Part shown: one piece after another, positions 12,733 through 55,005 of the stretch
Numbering within the stretch: position 1 is the first letter of the stretch
Layout of the letters: each line of letters starts with the position of its first letter
Assembly: GCA_950295325.1 (NCBI GenBank)
Contig: OX485804.1
Span: 46,004,001 to 46,068,000 of the forward strand
Length of the DNA stretch: 64,000 nt
Source: Polytrichum commune
Taxonomy: Eukaryota; Streptophyta; Polytrichopsida; Polytrichales; Polytrichaceae
Direction of reading: 5' to 3'
Notes under the pieces: generated by a model
Seen by the model: only the letters and a program-made list of their open reading frames with translations
What the model was told of the DNA's origin: nothing
The model's database searches: none
Position numbers and translations under genes: made by a program

Positions 12733-13533
12733 TTATGCTTATATTCACATGTCATATATGACATAACGTAATTGATATTTGAACCATTTTTTTTAATTTA
12801 AAAAATGTTTTTTAGAACCCGTCCAAATTGAATTTCACACGTCCCAAAACCGGTTCATTTTCTAAGAACCCGTCCACTGAAAATGTTTTTTTTATGAACA
12901 TGTCCCTAGACATGTTAGGGACCTTGTGAAAAAACACCCCTGCTCTCCATCCCTTGTTTGCACGCCACTATTTGCACATTATTTAACTTATTGTATCTTA
13001 CCACACGAGGATATCATTTTGGTGAATTCTACATGTACACTACAATGTGTGAGTTGGTAGCTAGGGTAGGGATATAATGTGGATGGAAGGTATTGGAGCT
13101 TTTTAGGGGGACATCATTTTTGTACATAATGAAGAGTACATGAAGGTGTAACTGCATTTAGGTCGCGATCTCACTCATGGTTAAGGAATAATTCGGTTAT
13201 AGCTAACTAGAATTTGAGACCATTACTAGACTTAGGTATAATTAGCAATAGCTAAGCATCACATAGCTAACTTTGTGTGTGTGTGTGTTTTATAGAGATC
13301 TTTAACTAACTGTCCATGACGAGACAACTCAACTAGGATTGTGGGGCCTATGATTGTCATAGATTGGGCTCGACACTTGTAAATGGGGTCATGTCCTGAT
13401 GACCTCCCGTATCCAATGGGAAGTGTGTTCTAGGCCTCCCAATCCTAGTAATTCAAGAAGTCGAACTTATTAAGTAGGGCTAGTTAAGTGAAGATTTGAA
13501 TTAGATGACCTTTATTAGATGACTGAAGTGTGG

Positions 13534-13935
13534 TTTTGAACCCAAGGCCTTAACCTAGTTCCCATGGGGATTCCGAGGTTAGGCCGCCTAAGGCCGGGAA
13601 TAGTACTCGGATGGGTGACCTTCCAAGAACTTGATTTCCAATGCACATGTCACCTATAATCCACCCAATCATAGCGGGGGTATCCGATTGAACTGGATAT
13701 TTTCAACCAACCATGTGGGAACATGTCTCCCCCAAGGTGTCGGTCAGCTTGTCTACGCCCGTTCAAGCTGTTCACCTTCAACAGGAGGCAACAGTTGTCG
13801 GGGGGCCCCTCTAATTCTTGTGATGGTCGTTTTGGGTTCACGTATAGATCGAGACGGCCTCGAAAACGAAGCGACGCCAATATTTACGCGGGTGACAACA
13901 CGGGGGTCGTCATTCTTTATTCGACGACCGACTAG
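13534..13935 (+). mobile_element. Dispersed repeat with a 5S rRNA-like head, copy 1 (5S-derived SINE or Cassandra-like TRIM)
   Basis: Positions 13534-13647 align with plant 5S rRNA from about base 25 to its end. TCCCAT and TTCCGAGGTTAGGC (13571 onward) match the 5S A-box side. The 20 bases at 13601-13620 differ from plant 5S TAGTACTAGGATGGGTGACC at one position, that stretch being the internal C-box. Even the 3' end TGCAC is kept. A body of about 290 bp follows with no 5S similarity, ending near GACAACACGGGGGTCGTC. The same head plus body recurs at 32000-32380, so this is a mobile unit and not a 5S gene. Homology to copy 2 begins inside the 5S part, which favours a pol III-transcribed SINE. 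Cassandra TRIMs also carry 5S in their LTRs and remain possible. Confidence 0.65.
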
Positions 13936-14204
13936 TAAAGTTACGAGTTGAGTTGATTGGCCTTTAAAAGAGTACTAATGAAACTGTAGGTGTGCGGAAA
14001 TATCTCCCCTAGTGGCACTCCCATTGGTTATTAAGGTTACGGTGAACCGATGGTGCTCAAAGGAGGAGGGACATGTGGTATTATTAGTGGACCACCTTAC
14101 CAAACCCACGGTTTGGCCCTCGGAATCGTCGCCAAAGGCGCATGTGGACTTAACTATCTCGGAACTCCACTCGGGACCTTCATGGTGATGTCGTCCTTCC
14201 TTTA

Positions 14205-17269: not shown

Positions 17270-19580
17270 TCCATTGACAAACATGTGTTTCCGTTAAAAT
17301 TGTTTTTATCACTCTACAAATATTGTAGTTAAGGTTTTGCTATCACTTAGAACTAACCCAAGGAAATCAAATGAGGGTACTAGGTCTCATGGAAGATTGA
17401 GCTAGTGTCTATAAGGATATGTCACTTTGGGTTGAGGAGTCTAATATCAATCTATTGTTTATCCTCCTTCATTCCTTCTTAGTTAGGCTTGATTTACACA
17501 CTTATAGTTCATTGATGCCTTATTTGTTGTGTGTGATTCCATCCTATGTGTGTGGACTCCTATCACCCTAATTTCCACTTTATATGTCAATCACGAAGCT
17601 CAAAAGCTTGCAAGTAGTCAATTGCTCACAGTCAAGACAATGTCCAGGGTAATGTCTTTGAATGATTGCATAGTCAAAATTACCAAGAATCACGCTTGCG
17701 ATAATCTCAAAATTAAATTCTCAGTTATCAACTTACATTCATCATCCCAGTCTTTGCAATCTATAGTCACCACCTTCGTCTTCCTCTAGACCTGACAACT
17801 TGTCTCAAGAATCACTCACATGGCGTTAATATAGTGATAATGCATAACAAGATAGGATATCTCCATTTCAATACCATTTAGTTTATTTCAATTAATTAAA
17901 TAATCTACATTGAGTATAAACTCACTTCAGTGAAGTAAAGTAATTTTCTCACAAGGTAATGTCATTGGCAACCTATAGCATGCCCCAAAGTATTGTCACC
18001 ACTACATGTAGACTCATTGTCATTTCTAACAAGGTGCAGTAGATCTAATAGGCTATGTTCTAATCATAATACTTACCCTATGGCAATGCCTCTCATTGTG
18101 TAGTCCTCTCTCAAACTAAGTCTTGGGTATAACCTTTCAACTTCCATTACTAATGACTATGCCATTTCAAGCTCTCGGTCTCCTTGATTCCACTCATGCT
18201 ATTTGCCTTCCTCACTTTTCGTGAGAATTGTCCCCTCTAGACCTCTTATTGGTCTCGCCATTTCTTAGTCTTCATAGAACTATCACCTTCTCTTGATTTA
18301 TGCTAACTCTTAATCCTAGACTTCTCAAACAACTTCCTATGATGCTCAAAGGCTATTGCCCAAGGATTACGCTCTTCAAGTTTGACCATAGCTCTCACAA
18401 TCCTTAGACACTCATTTGTTCAATTTGTTTATAAATCTCTACCAAACTATTACACTCTCAAGGTTCTCCCTCAATCAAATCCTTAAGGAGCCTTGTGTCT
18501 CAACATACATTGGTTCTTTAATCTTCCACTCAATATCTCTCTATAATCACCTATCGTCATAGGCTTACTCGTTTATTCTCAACCTTAATTACACCCTCCA
18601 TGTTACTTTCAATTTGATTACTTATGGGCTATCATCCTCATGATTTTTCTTTTAGTCCTACGCTCTTTCTCAGCAATCCTCGTCTCGCAAGGCTATTGCC
18701 AAGAACTCACTCATCACCATTAACCATGACTTTGATAGTCTTCAAGCATTTCGCTCACAATTTCCACACAGAGAAAAGAAGAAACGCTGACAATGTGATC
18801 AGCGTGATTGGAATGCCCATTCGACCCACCCTTGGTATTTATACCCTCAAGGCATAATACCAGTGGTGCAGGACTACTAACCCCTCTCGGGGTGGGCACC
18901 AATTTCCACACACTACTTACTCGTAACGACGCACACAACCATCACTCACATACATTCAACATTTGCATTTACTTCAAACCACAAAGTTTAACAATCAAAT
19001 TTTCATTGCTAGTACCACACAATACTTAATCACAATATCATGATTAAATTAGTTCAAAAATCCGACTCACTCAGTTCTATGGGTCTAATGCCCTATCCTC
19101 AAGTTATCCACTTGGGATGCAACCTAACATATATTCACTCAAACTCAATCGTTGAGCTCAGTGATACAAAAGTCCATTGCTTCTACACTGAGAGTATGCA
19201 AGATAACACATGAAAATAGCTTCTCTTTTCCATGGCTGACCTCCTTATTGAGCCGAGAGGAGAGGAAGGTGGTTGAGGCCACTAACTGTCTTGAAGCGGC
19301 AATAGCCTCCTAACCCCACTATGGATGACAATCTAACTACCCTTTGTTGGATGAAAGGCATAAAGCTTTGAAATTTGCCCAATTTTGGCTATAGCCAAAG
19401 AATGTGGTTGATAAACACCTTAGAACATGCACTAATTTTCTTGAAATCTATGGTAAATGAGCATGTATTCATGAATTTAGTGTCACTCAGTAAAACATTT
19501 AGCCCTCAATACCTATGAGATTTTGGACTAACACATATATTTGAGCATATATTGCTTTAAATTTTGTATTGAACAATAAC
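17270..19580. other. Unexplained 2-kb stretch, pyrimidine-rich plus strand
   Basis: The plus strand is visibly rich in C and T compared with its surroundings, and no repeat found elsewhere in the window recurs here. On the minus strand a stretch in the 18.3-18.4 kb area reads CLRIVRAMVKLEERN and then AFEHHRKLFEKSRIKS without a stop, flanked by stops. This could be an old gene or retroelement relic; I cannot name it. Confidence 0.3.
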
Positions 19581-31320: not shown

Positions 31321-31599
31321 TTAGTTGACTCAAGGTGCTGTACAAAACCACTTCAAATGTACTTCTTGCAAAGTCTTGCAAAACAAATATGAACTCTTTG
31401 ACATTGAAGGATTACACTTCGACATTGTCATGTCCACATGGGTAGAAAGAAAAGAAAAAATAACGTCCGTATCTTGGTACCGGCATGAATGTGAGCCCGT
31501 TAGCCTTGTATTGATCACGGTGTACCGTGATGCAATATAAGGTGTTTTGCCTCCATGGGGAGGTGGGCTCTAGTGTAATATTAAGCATATCTAACCTCT

Positions 31600-31968
31600 C
31601 TAAGGCGGGGGGATGAGTGTTTGTTTGTTATCTAGTTTCCTTTTATTCAGAACTAGGTATGTGAGGTATTTGATGGCGTTTTGGTGTATATGTTTCATAA
31701 GGAGTTTGATGTTGGATTTAGGAATTTTTAGTTCGGTTAATTTTTCGATGGAGTGTTCGTGGACGGCTTCTCTAACTCCAGCTGTGATAGTAATGATGAG
31801 GTTAGTCTTCCACCCATTGTTTTGTATGGTATTTATTAATGGGTCATATTTCGTGTGTTTTCGGGTGATTGCTTGTTCTAGGAATCTGTCATGACAATAT
31901 GTGAATTCGATAAATTGGATTGTGTGTGTTGTCCACATGGGTATGGGTAGAAGGTGGTGAACAAACAT
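31600..31968 (-). pseudogene. C-terminal fragment of a non-LTR retroelement ORF, uninterrupted
   Basis: A minus-strand ORF of 122 codons has no internal stop and ends IPPP-stop. Its pattern is IEFTYCHDRF, then about 20 polar residues, GWKTN, ITITAGVR, HEHSIEKL, and finally IKYLTYLVLNKRKLDNKQ. I recognise this as the tail found after the reverse transcriptase in some algal and protist retroelements, where the IExxYC block resembles the E-x-K strand of a PD-(D/E)XK nuclease. Here the K position seems to be T. The frame stays open upstream to about 32005, where a stop falls inside the neighbouring 5S-headed repeat. A 3' tail may extend to about 31330. The absence of stops suggests a younger copy than the LINE at 29 kb. 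Homology is from memory and could be wrong. Confidence 0.4.
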
Positions 31969-31999
31969 TGCACATAATAGGTTCTTATTCTTCTTCTTC

Positions 32000-32380
32000 G
32001 AGGCTTTAAACTCAAGGCCTTAACCCAAATCCCATGGCAACTACGAGAGTGAGTTGCCTAAGGTTGGGATAGTACTTAGATGAATGACTTTCCTAGCACT
32101 CGATTTCTAGTGCATCCTAATAACCACCTTTGGTCCACCCAATCATAGTGGGGGTATCTGGATGACCCGGATATTTTCAACCAAGCATGTGGGACCCTAG
32201 GGGGAGATAGGTGTTAGCTTGCTTGTCCGAGCATGTTCAAGGTGTTCACCTCCAAAGGAGGTAGTAGTCGTCAAGGGCCCTCTAATTCTCGTGATGCCCG
32301 TTTCAAGACTACACATAGATTTAGACCAACTAGAAAAGACAGCAACGCCACAATTCACGCTAGTGGCAACATATGAGTTT
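32000..32380 (+). mobile_element. 5S-headed repeat, copy 2
   Basis: Same order as the copy at 13.5 kb. The 5S-like part is at about 32003-32113, with a decayed C-box at 32070-32089 mostly through C-to-T and G-to-A changes. The shared body then runs through CCACCCAATCATAG, GATATTTTCAACCAA, GTTCACCTCCAA and CTCTAATTCT to GGCAACATATGAGTTT. It ends in a TTTC microsatellite (32379-32403), which could be a retroposon-type tail. It abuts the minus-strand retroelement ORF at 31968. Confidence 0.6.
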
Positions 32381-32471
32381 TCTTTCTTTCTTTCTTTCTT
32401 TCTTCCCTTTCATGTAGACTTTCTCTAAGGTGATCATGCTCCCAATCCTCATATTTTGTGTGAAATAAATA

Positions 32472-32760
32472 TGATGCACACTAGCCCTATTGTCCACCCA
32501 ATCATTGGGGGGGGGGGGGGGGGTCCAAGTGAACTGAATGTTTTCAACCAACCATGCAAGGACGTAGGGGTTTGCTTTGGAGAAGATGGCTTGTCTATGC
32601 CCATTCATGGTGTTTGCCCTTGACAAGATGCAATAGTCTTTGAAGACCCTCCAATTGTCATGACATTAGTTTTGAGATTCCATATAGGGTTTATACCAAC
32701 TTGAAGATGAAGGAGCACTATAATTTATGTCGGTGACGACATCTGAGTTATTTTGTCTTC
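32472..32760 (+). mobile_element. 5S-headed repeat family, copy 3, body only
   Basis: Homology to copies 1 and 2 starts at the last few bases of the 5S part (GATGCACA) and runs to GTCGGTGACGACATCTGAGTT. The 5S head is missing or unrecognisable. Where copies 1 and 2 have five Gs after CCACCCAATCAT, this copy has 17 Gs (32507-32523). Confidence 0.55.
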
Positions 32761-53634: not shown

Positions 53635-55005
53635 CCACCCAACTTTCCAAATTTAGCTAGTAAACGACTATTCCCACTTTGCTTGAGGGTCCCACATAAT
53701 ATAATTGACATGTTGCAAGGCCATGGAACCAACCCACATGGCTGAATAATATTATGTTTTTTACAATTTGTTAATATCTTGAATATATCCTTAGATGGTC
53801 TTCACCATGTTGATAGTTTCATGTCCATTATAGGAACTTCTACCTTGAGCAAGATTATCAAAGTGTATGTGTGTGTTGGATTGCCTCACGTATATTTTTA
53901 GTACATGGGAGAATAAGGAGAAGAAAGAAATATAAAAGAACGTCGTTTTTTGACCGATGTGATGATATTCCATTAGCCATCCACATTACAAGTTGAGTGA
54001 AGTGTAAGAGGGGATGGTGTAATGTCTATCTTGCGATAGACGGGACCCTAAGTGAAAGGAAAAATAAAGAAAGGAAACTATGATGTTGCCACTGGTGTAA
54101 ATTATGATGTTATTTCATTTTTGAGTTGATCTAAGTCTAGGACCCTAAGTGCTTAAAGGGCCATGGTCCTAATTTAGCAATACTGATGGTTGATATATTC
54201 CAAGTTTATGTTTATTAAAAGAAATGTGGGTAAGATATAGTAATAGCTTCTCATGAGAGAGGTTCCATAAGGGATTTGATATTGTATTTTGGAATTTGAA
54301 GATGACGAAGGAAGTTAATAGAAAGTTAGTGTATGGCACATGTATGACACCATGGATGTTGGCCATGATAATGACAGGGAGAGGGTGTTCCAACCAAGTT
54401 GTTGGAGACAAGGGACTAATAGTTGTGCCACACCGGGCAGCCCAGTGGTCCATCCAACCAGTCCTCCCGGTGTGGCATAACTATAAGACATCATAATGTG
54501 TGTTATTACCGACAACGACACTCGCAAGAAATAAATCATCATGGTATGTGAAATTCACAATTTGAACGGTGAGGGAGTGATGGGTTGTAAAGACACGTAT
54601 GTCCAATAAAAAAAATTTACACTCAATGCTCAAAATGTATGGATGGAAGCGAGCCAAGTATACACATTTTGGCATGTAACACGAGCATGGAAGTAGCCAT
54701 GAGGGTAATGTGTTATCGGGGTGGTGTTGGAACCTCGAAGCCTTTTCACGAGTTTTTGAATACCGCACAAAAAGGGTGGCTCCATCATTTCGGGTGGAAG
54801 ATCCTTAGCAATTGAGGACAAACACATGAGAGATGCAATGGCTTCCATACATAATAATCTTGCTTACTTTAATTAGTAAATTACACAACACGGGCCAAGG
54901 AGAATTTTGGGCATAATTGGGTTGAGATCTCGGTGTTTCCAAGTCCAACTAGTTAAATGTAGACACCTTTAGGTATATTCTCTAAATTCCTCCAAAGTGG
55001 TCGGT
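53635..55005. other. No gene seen; hairpin and foldback scraps
   Basis: Contains the 54420 stem-loop and, at 54893-55007, half of foldback R4 (TTGGGCATAATTGGGTTGAG, GTTTCCAAGTCCAACTAGTT). Confidence 0.45.
54420..54483. repeat. 18-bp stem-loop
   Basis: TAGTTGTGCCACACCGGG and CCCGGTGTGGCATAACTA pair over 18 positions with one wobble, around a 28-nt loop. It could be a small foldback element. Confidence 0.8.

Follow-up and report, generated by a model that had tools for sequence, protein, structure and literature searches.

The genome of Polytrichum commune (Polytrichopsida) contains a dispersed family of short repeats that is, very probably, a 5S rRNA-derived SINE of the SINE3 type residing in a plant. 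Its units join a 5S-like head to a body unrelated to 5S, and they end in a hairpin and a T/C tail which resemble the 3' end of a LINE clade that this genome also contains. We analysed a stretch of 64,000 nucleotides, hereafter the window (C2:46004001-46068000), together with the assembly to which it belongs (GCA_950295325.1), which comprises 408 Mb in 64 contigs, C1 to C7 (42 to 78 Mb each) making up nearly the whole. C1 starts with CCCTAAA repeats, the plant telomere motif.

A dispersed family with common boundaries

Four pieces of the family were recognized in the window by the family HMM, among them two full-length copies, A and B (Table 1). A preliminary description, made from the letters of the window, had placed a fusion of 5S-like sequence with a 5S-unlike body at 13534-13935 and had seen the same fusion at 32000-32380. 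The second site was recovered both by the HMM and by a blastn comparison of the window with itself, in which copy A (13532-13921) pairs with copy B (32002-32392) at 70.9% over 395 columns. The observation at the first site stands, but its limits needed correction: the unit starts at about 13529 and the element proper ends at 13911, after which a degenerate tail follows.

Table 1. Features located in the window (positions counted from its first nucleotide)
Feature	Position	Strand	Evidence
SINE copy A, full length, consensus 1-394	13529..13911	+	HMM 6-394 at 13534-13911, E 8.9e-104; base 1 reached by alignment
5S rRNA-derived head of copy A	13529..13648, end approximate	+	score 65 against own 5S; consensus head 119 nt
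Region taken as IE/C-box of the 5S promoter, copy A	13601..13620	+	19/20 bases identical to own 5S
Degenerate T-rich tail of copy A	13912..13921	+	sequence; tails of other copies
Possible upstream target duplication, copy A	13510..13523	+	12/14 matches to 13915-13928, overlapping tail
129-nt element ending in related hairpin and T/C tail	18771..18899	-	R1 18.6 bits, E 0.012 at 18773-18821
Target duplication of LINE copy, tail side, 13 nt ACCCATGTGGACA	31431..31443	-	sequence
Putative partner LINE, copy truncated at its 5' end: ORF end, 3' UTR, 3' hairpin, T/C tail	31446..31929	-	75.6% identity to L080+L083 in 484 blastn columns
Target duplication of LINE copy, ORF side, same 13 nt ACCCATGTGGACA	31930..31942	-	sequence
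SINE copy B, full length	31999..32381	+	HMM 6-393 at 32004-32381, E 8.8e-110; start from alignment
(CTTT)n tail of copy B	32382..32405	+	sequence
Headless SINE fragment, consensus 111-392, probably 5'-truncated	32473..32750	+	HMM E 5.1e-47
3' fragment of SINE, consensus 328-391	54076..54139	-	HMM E 9.7e-11

A genome search, as the same description had suggested, was made with 13500-13960 as query; the fusion was found at the 40 places scored of 1565 first-look candidates, one of these being the window copy itself and the rest showing 72-75% identity. The 40 loci (L001-L040, L001 being copy A) were aligned with their flanks together with copy B, giving a set of 41 copies that is biased toward full length because it holds the best-scoring ones. 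Conservation drops sharply at GGGTGG on the left and inside the (TTTC)n stretch on the right, and the consensus has 394 nt; the units begin with a 119-nt 5S head, continue with the body and a hairpin at the 3' end, and close with a (TTTC)n tail. When this consensus was used as query, the best 40 scored of 2698 first-look candidates were nearly full length, at 85-90%. Patterns of 30 nt, allowing up to 3 mismatches, occur in at least 382 genome places for the 5' start, at least 253 for the head-body junction and at least 196 for the 3' end, with no match to the reversed control in any of the three cases; the counts are lower bounds because the copies have diverged. Also, 97 kb from 57 loci that were fetched for other reasons included 4 HMM matches, in two loci. 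It is likely that copies and fragments number thousands in the genome.

The outlines of the family bear on whether processed 5S pseudogenes merely lie beside an unrelated repeat, or a single fusion was spread by duplication at the DNA level. Single 5S pseudogenes do exist (L065, L067), and L008 and L018 have flanks in common. Against this, the same head-body junction recurs at those 253 or more places, conservation is lost outside the unit in the 41 aligned copies, and target duplications are found above chance (see below), for which we regard such an origin as extremely improbable.

The SINE family looks old. Outside CpG, the copies differ from the consensus by 5.8-17.8% (median 10.2%), and the closest pair, L008/L018, is 88% identical and shares flanking sequence; no near-identical, young copy was present among the copies examined. 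Two local arrangements were also observed. At C1:391432-848385, at least six SINE 3'-end matches among those listed, five of them identical, are spaced over 0.46 Mb, which suggests that a piece of the SINE was multiplied along with a segment or gene array that was duplicated. In L044 (C1:30437400-30440700) a body segment, at about 233-283 of the consensus, forms several tandem repeats beside another copy.

Origin of the head

The genome's own 5S gene, read from L041, was the reference for the head. Consensus head and own 5S align with a score of 84, the maximum in 2000 shuffles being 26, and the body scores 15, in agreement with the earlier view that the body has nothing to do with 5S. Over the first 118 nt of the consensus, 84 of 122 aligned columns are identical to own 5S. 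In the opposite direction, the family HMM built from the 41 copies matches the own 5S genes of L041-L043 with E values of 1.3e-15 to 4.4e-15, at most over positions 14-127 of 394; in L042 a 3' fragment of the SINE is also present, at a distance of over 1 kb from the 5S gene. The head of copy A was confirmed as 5S-like, its score exceeding the maximum of 25 in 1000 shuffles, and the 19 identical bases out of 20 reported earlier for the promoter stretch were found again when own 5S was used for comparison; the IE/C-box label follows box names that we take from the 5S literature. The head of copy B taken alone scores 22 (shuffled maximum 25), which is not significant, and this copy is tied to 5S only via its family. 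The preliminary description had also considered that other copies might lack 5S likeness, which would make the match fortuitous; in the loci read this is not the case.

The head of 119 nt has both 5S termini, and the terminal helix GGGTG/CACCC is present at five pairs, in 29-37 of 38-41 copies per pair, the next two pairs being lost. The length and this terminal pairing indicate that the SINE head is derived from a whole 5S rRNA. Of the 41 copies, 38 align from one of the first four 5S bases onward, the exceptions being L001, L023 and copy B. The earlier statement that homology begins inside the 5S part has therefore to be abandoned, as the unit starts at the first 5S base. Pol III starts transcription of 5S genes at this very base, and a unit that begins there makes a retroposon started by pol III still more plausible.

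The likeness is carried by sequence and not by fold. The Rfam 5S model gave no match in the window at its gathering score; at a permissive threshold it gave 17.4 bits at 13563-13644 (gathering 38, E 1.9), and the good copies L002, L003 and L006, all three, yielded nothing for 5S at E<=0.1. This non-acceptance of the copies indicates that the fold has been largely lost. Outside CpG the C-box stretch is 92.6% conserved, a small excess over the head (90.7%) and the body (89.5%). The body also contains a TTTT at consensus 172-175, each T of which is retained in 88-95% of copies, and this run may stop pol III or weaken read-through.

Other 5S-like sequences were found in the genome. L068 (C2:59433200-59434300) contains two 5S-like stretches, at 394-503 and 576-689, about 182 bp apart, within an apparent intron of a zinc-finger gene (zf-C2H2; the TFIIIA model was below cut-off), and L069 and L071 have the same pair. 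The arrangement resembles the plant 5S mimic (P5SM) of TFIIIA, here doubled. An origin of the SINE head from such a mimic intron was considered and rejected, as the family HMM gives 50.8-52.5 bits for the own 5S genes of L041-L043 vs 31-36 bits for the mimic stretches. A second 5S repeat family around L065/L067 was likewise discarded: the 21 places found are 5S genes or 5S pieces. As for the 5S genes themselves, two lie in inverted order, about 1.2 kb apart, at C2:45902799-45904116; the best 12 5S matches are spread over five chromosomes and, with 47 of 15430 candidates scored, the 29 matches listed include no long array.

Target duplications and truncated copies

Target duplications, to which the preliminary description had pointed as informative, are present well above chance. 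Anchored at the junctions, those with a score of 9 or more were found in 12 of 41 copies vs 6 of 1640 mismatched pairs, and those with a score of 8 or more in 17 of 41 vs 22 of 1640; the other 24 copies have none scoring 8 or more. They vary in length and adjoin GGGTGG on one side and follow the tail on the other, as in L007 (TATGTCAGCACAC), L028 (TTTCAGAGCTGACG) and L038 (ATTTGCTACATTT). The flanks of copy B were checked and yielded no convincing duplication. Among 20 loci picked by their 3' end, L045, L050, L053, L056 and L057 are 5'-truncated, starting at consensus 288-317, and L056 has a duplication, TTCCTTGAGTCT, at its truncated end; others of this set have internal deletions. Two full units were never found in one locus (0 of 40 loci, 8 of them read with flanks of about 1.5 kb and the other 32 with flanks of 0.5 kb); L007 and L038 have one inverted headless piece each, and L033 has two headless pieces on the same strand. 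Taken together, duplications, 5' truncation and the lack of paired full units are marks of target-primed reverse transcription and argue for a SINE. Terminal inverted repeats, as in a MITE or DNA transposon, are absent, the consensus ends GGGTGG... and ...GTCGTC(TTTC)n not being inverted copies of each other.

These data also allow the family to be compared with Cassandra, the element already known from plants to carry 5S sequence (PMC10853983), which is an LTR element (PMC10853983, PMC10886601). If the unit were a solo LTR, or a piece of an LTR, of a Cassandra-type TRIM with its 5S promoter, it would have been moved by LTR-retrotransposon machinery. Both are plant mobile DNA in which a 5S sequence is a probable pol III promoter, and a second, partial copy on the same strand is indeed seen at L033, L044 and L060 and in the window. 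However, the units end in GGGTGG and (TTTC)n and not in TG..CA, no pair of full units exists in the 40 loci, an internal region was not found either, and the extra pieces of L007, L033 and L038 are headless, the duplications vary in length, and 5'-truncated copies, a hallmark of target-primed reverse transcription, are present. LTRs with TG..CA ends, the sign by which the preliminary description would have recognized a TRIM, were absent from the loci read. We thus give this reading very little weight. The SINE-like unit with a 5S head that was favoured from the start is borne out by its dispersal, the common ends, the target duplications, the 5'-truncated copies and the LINE-like 3' end described below.

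A putative partner LINE

LINE proteins were located via PF14529 and PF00078. L080 and L082 contain RVT_1, a PCIF1_WW-like stretch and RNase_H; the PCIF1_WW-like stretch, methyltransferase-related, scores 27.8 and 27.1 bits, just under the Pfam cut-off of 31.1. All domains of L080 are in one open frame, and the RNase H of L082 is in another frame. The domain scan covered these two loci; L081 is 77.6% identical to L080 at the DNA level, and matches to PF14529 (endonuclease) precede the RT by about 1.5 kb at L080, L081 and L082. A 3' UTR and, after it, a T/C tail come behind the ORF of L080+L083. In the openly licensed literature we found no paper on PCIF1 with retrotransposons, also when plants were added to the search.

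The end motif of these LINEs was present in 12 of the 13 ends examined (all but L092) and, of 20 more places selected by endonuclease matches, in 10. Their common end reads AACGGGCTC..ATTCAYGCCGGTA..hairpin..T/C tail and that of the SINE reads AATTCACGCCGGTGGCAACATCGGAGTCGTC(TTTC)n, both sharing ATTCACGCCGGT, a T/C tail and a hairpin that folds at the same place. The exact stretch in common is 12-13 nt long, lies in the conserved 3' part of the LINE and precedes the T/C tail by 15-18 nt in both. The LINE hairpin has both-side changes at 6 of 10 pairs, and none of 500 shuffles was as high; in 6 of 12 ends one of the pairs cannot form, and 116 of 500 shuffles reached its count of further pair types.

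The likeness between both ends was evaluated in several ways. Local SINE-LINE scores were reached in at most 6 of 2000 shuffles for 4 of 12 LINE ends and in 11 to 199 for five, and three diverged LINE ends had no likeness above shuffles (reached in at least 1390 of 2000). A covariance model of the LINE end including the tail (R1) gave 46 matches, 27 of them at SINE ends, of which 68 are present, where 0.24 would be expected if matches were even. A tail-free model (R2), stricter than R1 (effective sequences 10.3 vs 4.4), found none of the SINE ends, hence the 27 matches of R1 rest partly on the tail. In tail-free gapped alignments against 11 LINE ends, the mean score of the terminal 31 nt of the SINE was above that of all 124056 other window stretches, and its best single-LINE score was reached by 12 of the 124056, one being higher; of the 13 LINE ends, L096, which repeats L090 there, and L092, which has no recognisable LINE end, were left out of this test. 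Among 67 SINE ends, the 5 that were out of register were dropped.

On this basis, the LINE clade with the PCIF1-like stretch is the probable mobilising partner of the SINE. A different LINE, for example an L1-like one, could have moved it if the 3' likeness were a convergence of short hairpin and simple tail, since the exact common stretch is only 12-13 nt and R2 fails without the tail; zf-RVT LINEs are moreover present in the genome. Yet the shared 12 nt keep the same place in conserved LINE sequence and the same distance from the tail, and six loci of the zf-RVT group (L074-L079) showed no SINE-like 3' end in the stretches read, which reach the 3' end in part of them. We consider another mover unlikely. 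Two more zf-RVT loci, L084 and L085, likewise showed no such end within what was read, and the zf-RVT LINEs were rejected as partner; in L074, a run of A stands some 230 nt past the ORF. The best SINE 3'-end matches were also searched for a partner, and the 20 loci fetched were SINE copies or fragments only.

The window itself contains a 5'-truncated copy of the probable partner LINE, next to SINE copy B. R1 scores 61.4 bits at 31449-31501, strong protein likeness is found only from about 31926 on, and the 13-mer of its target duplication occurs within the window at these two flanks only. The 129-nt element at 18771-18899, with 13-mer TGTGTGGAAATTG at 18900-18912 and 18758-18770, gave no match to the tail-free R2 and may come from the 3' end of a related LINE, strongly truncated, or belong to another small family.

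From these features we infer the following way of propagation. A 5S rRNA copy would have supplied the head with its internal pol III promoter, and pol III transcripts of the SINE would start at the first head base. As the 3' hairpin and T/C tail of the element RNA resemble those of the LINE, the LINE reverse transcriptase would copy this RNA into nicked target DNA. Such target-primed reverse transcription would leave target duplications that differ in length and, in some cases, copies truncated at the 5' end.

Relation to known elements and implications

SINE3 elements are recorded from vertebrates and insects (PMC7245038) and from Aspergillus, which carries AfuSINE3 (PMC5063351). Zebrafish SINE3, moth HaSE3 and PxSE4/5, and AfuSINE3 resemble the present family in having a 5S head, an unrelated body, a LINE-like 3' end and a simple tail. 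In contrast, the host here is a plant, and the partners named in PMC7245038 are CR1, I and RTE vs a likeness to a LINE with a PCIF1-like stretch and RNase H here. Moth heads (PxSE4/5) are about 63% identical to 5S (PMC8010984), vs 84 of 122 aligned columns in our family, whose head retains the full 5S length and the terminal helix.

Plant tRNA-derived SINEs (Au, p-SINE1, TS, ZmSINE2) are similarly short and pol III-derived in their head, but the head here comes from 5S and not from tRNA, and the tail is (TTTC)n and not plain T. A maize survey describes a 3' end common with a LINE for ZmSINE2 and ZmSINE3 and T-rich tails in some plant SINE families, and states that 5S-derived SINEs were sought and none found (PMC2774510). 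AnnoSINE admits 5S heads as a class (PMC8825457). Our searches of the openly licensed literature returned no plant 5S SINE, nor any paper on Polytrichum with genome assembly and transposable elements.

A plant SINE3 means that LINE-driven retroposons captured the 5S promoter in plants too, and the probable partner with a PCIF1-like stretch would add a clade to the LINEs named as SINE3 movers. It is also the class of element required by the origin proposed for Cassandra, in which, as a speculation, a SINE3 went into an LTR (PMC10886601). That the present family is what remains of a SINE3 lineage of old standing in land plants, and that a SINE3 insertion into an LTR gave Cassandra its 5S promoter, seems to us very unlikely. 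With a plant SINE3 in hand, this idea on the origin of Cassandra becomes testable by comparing 5S variants.
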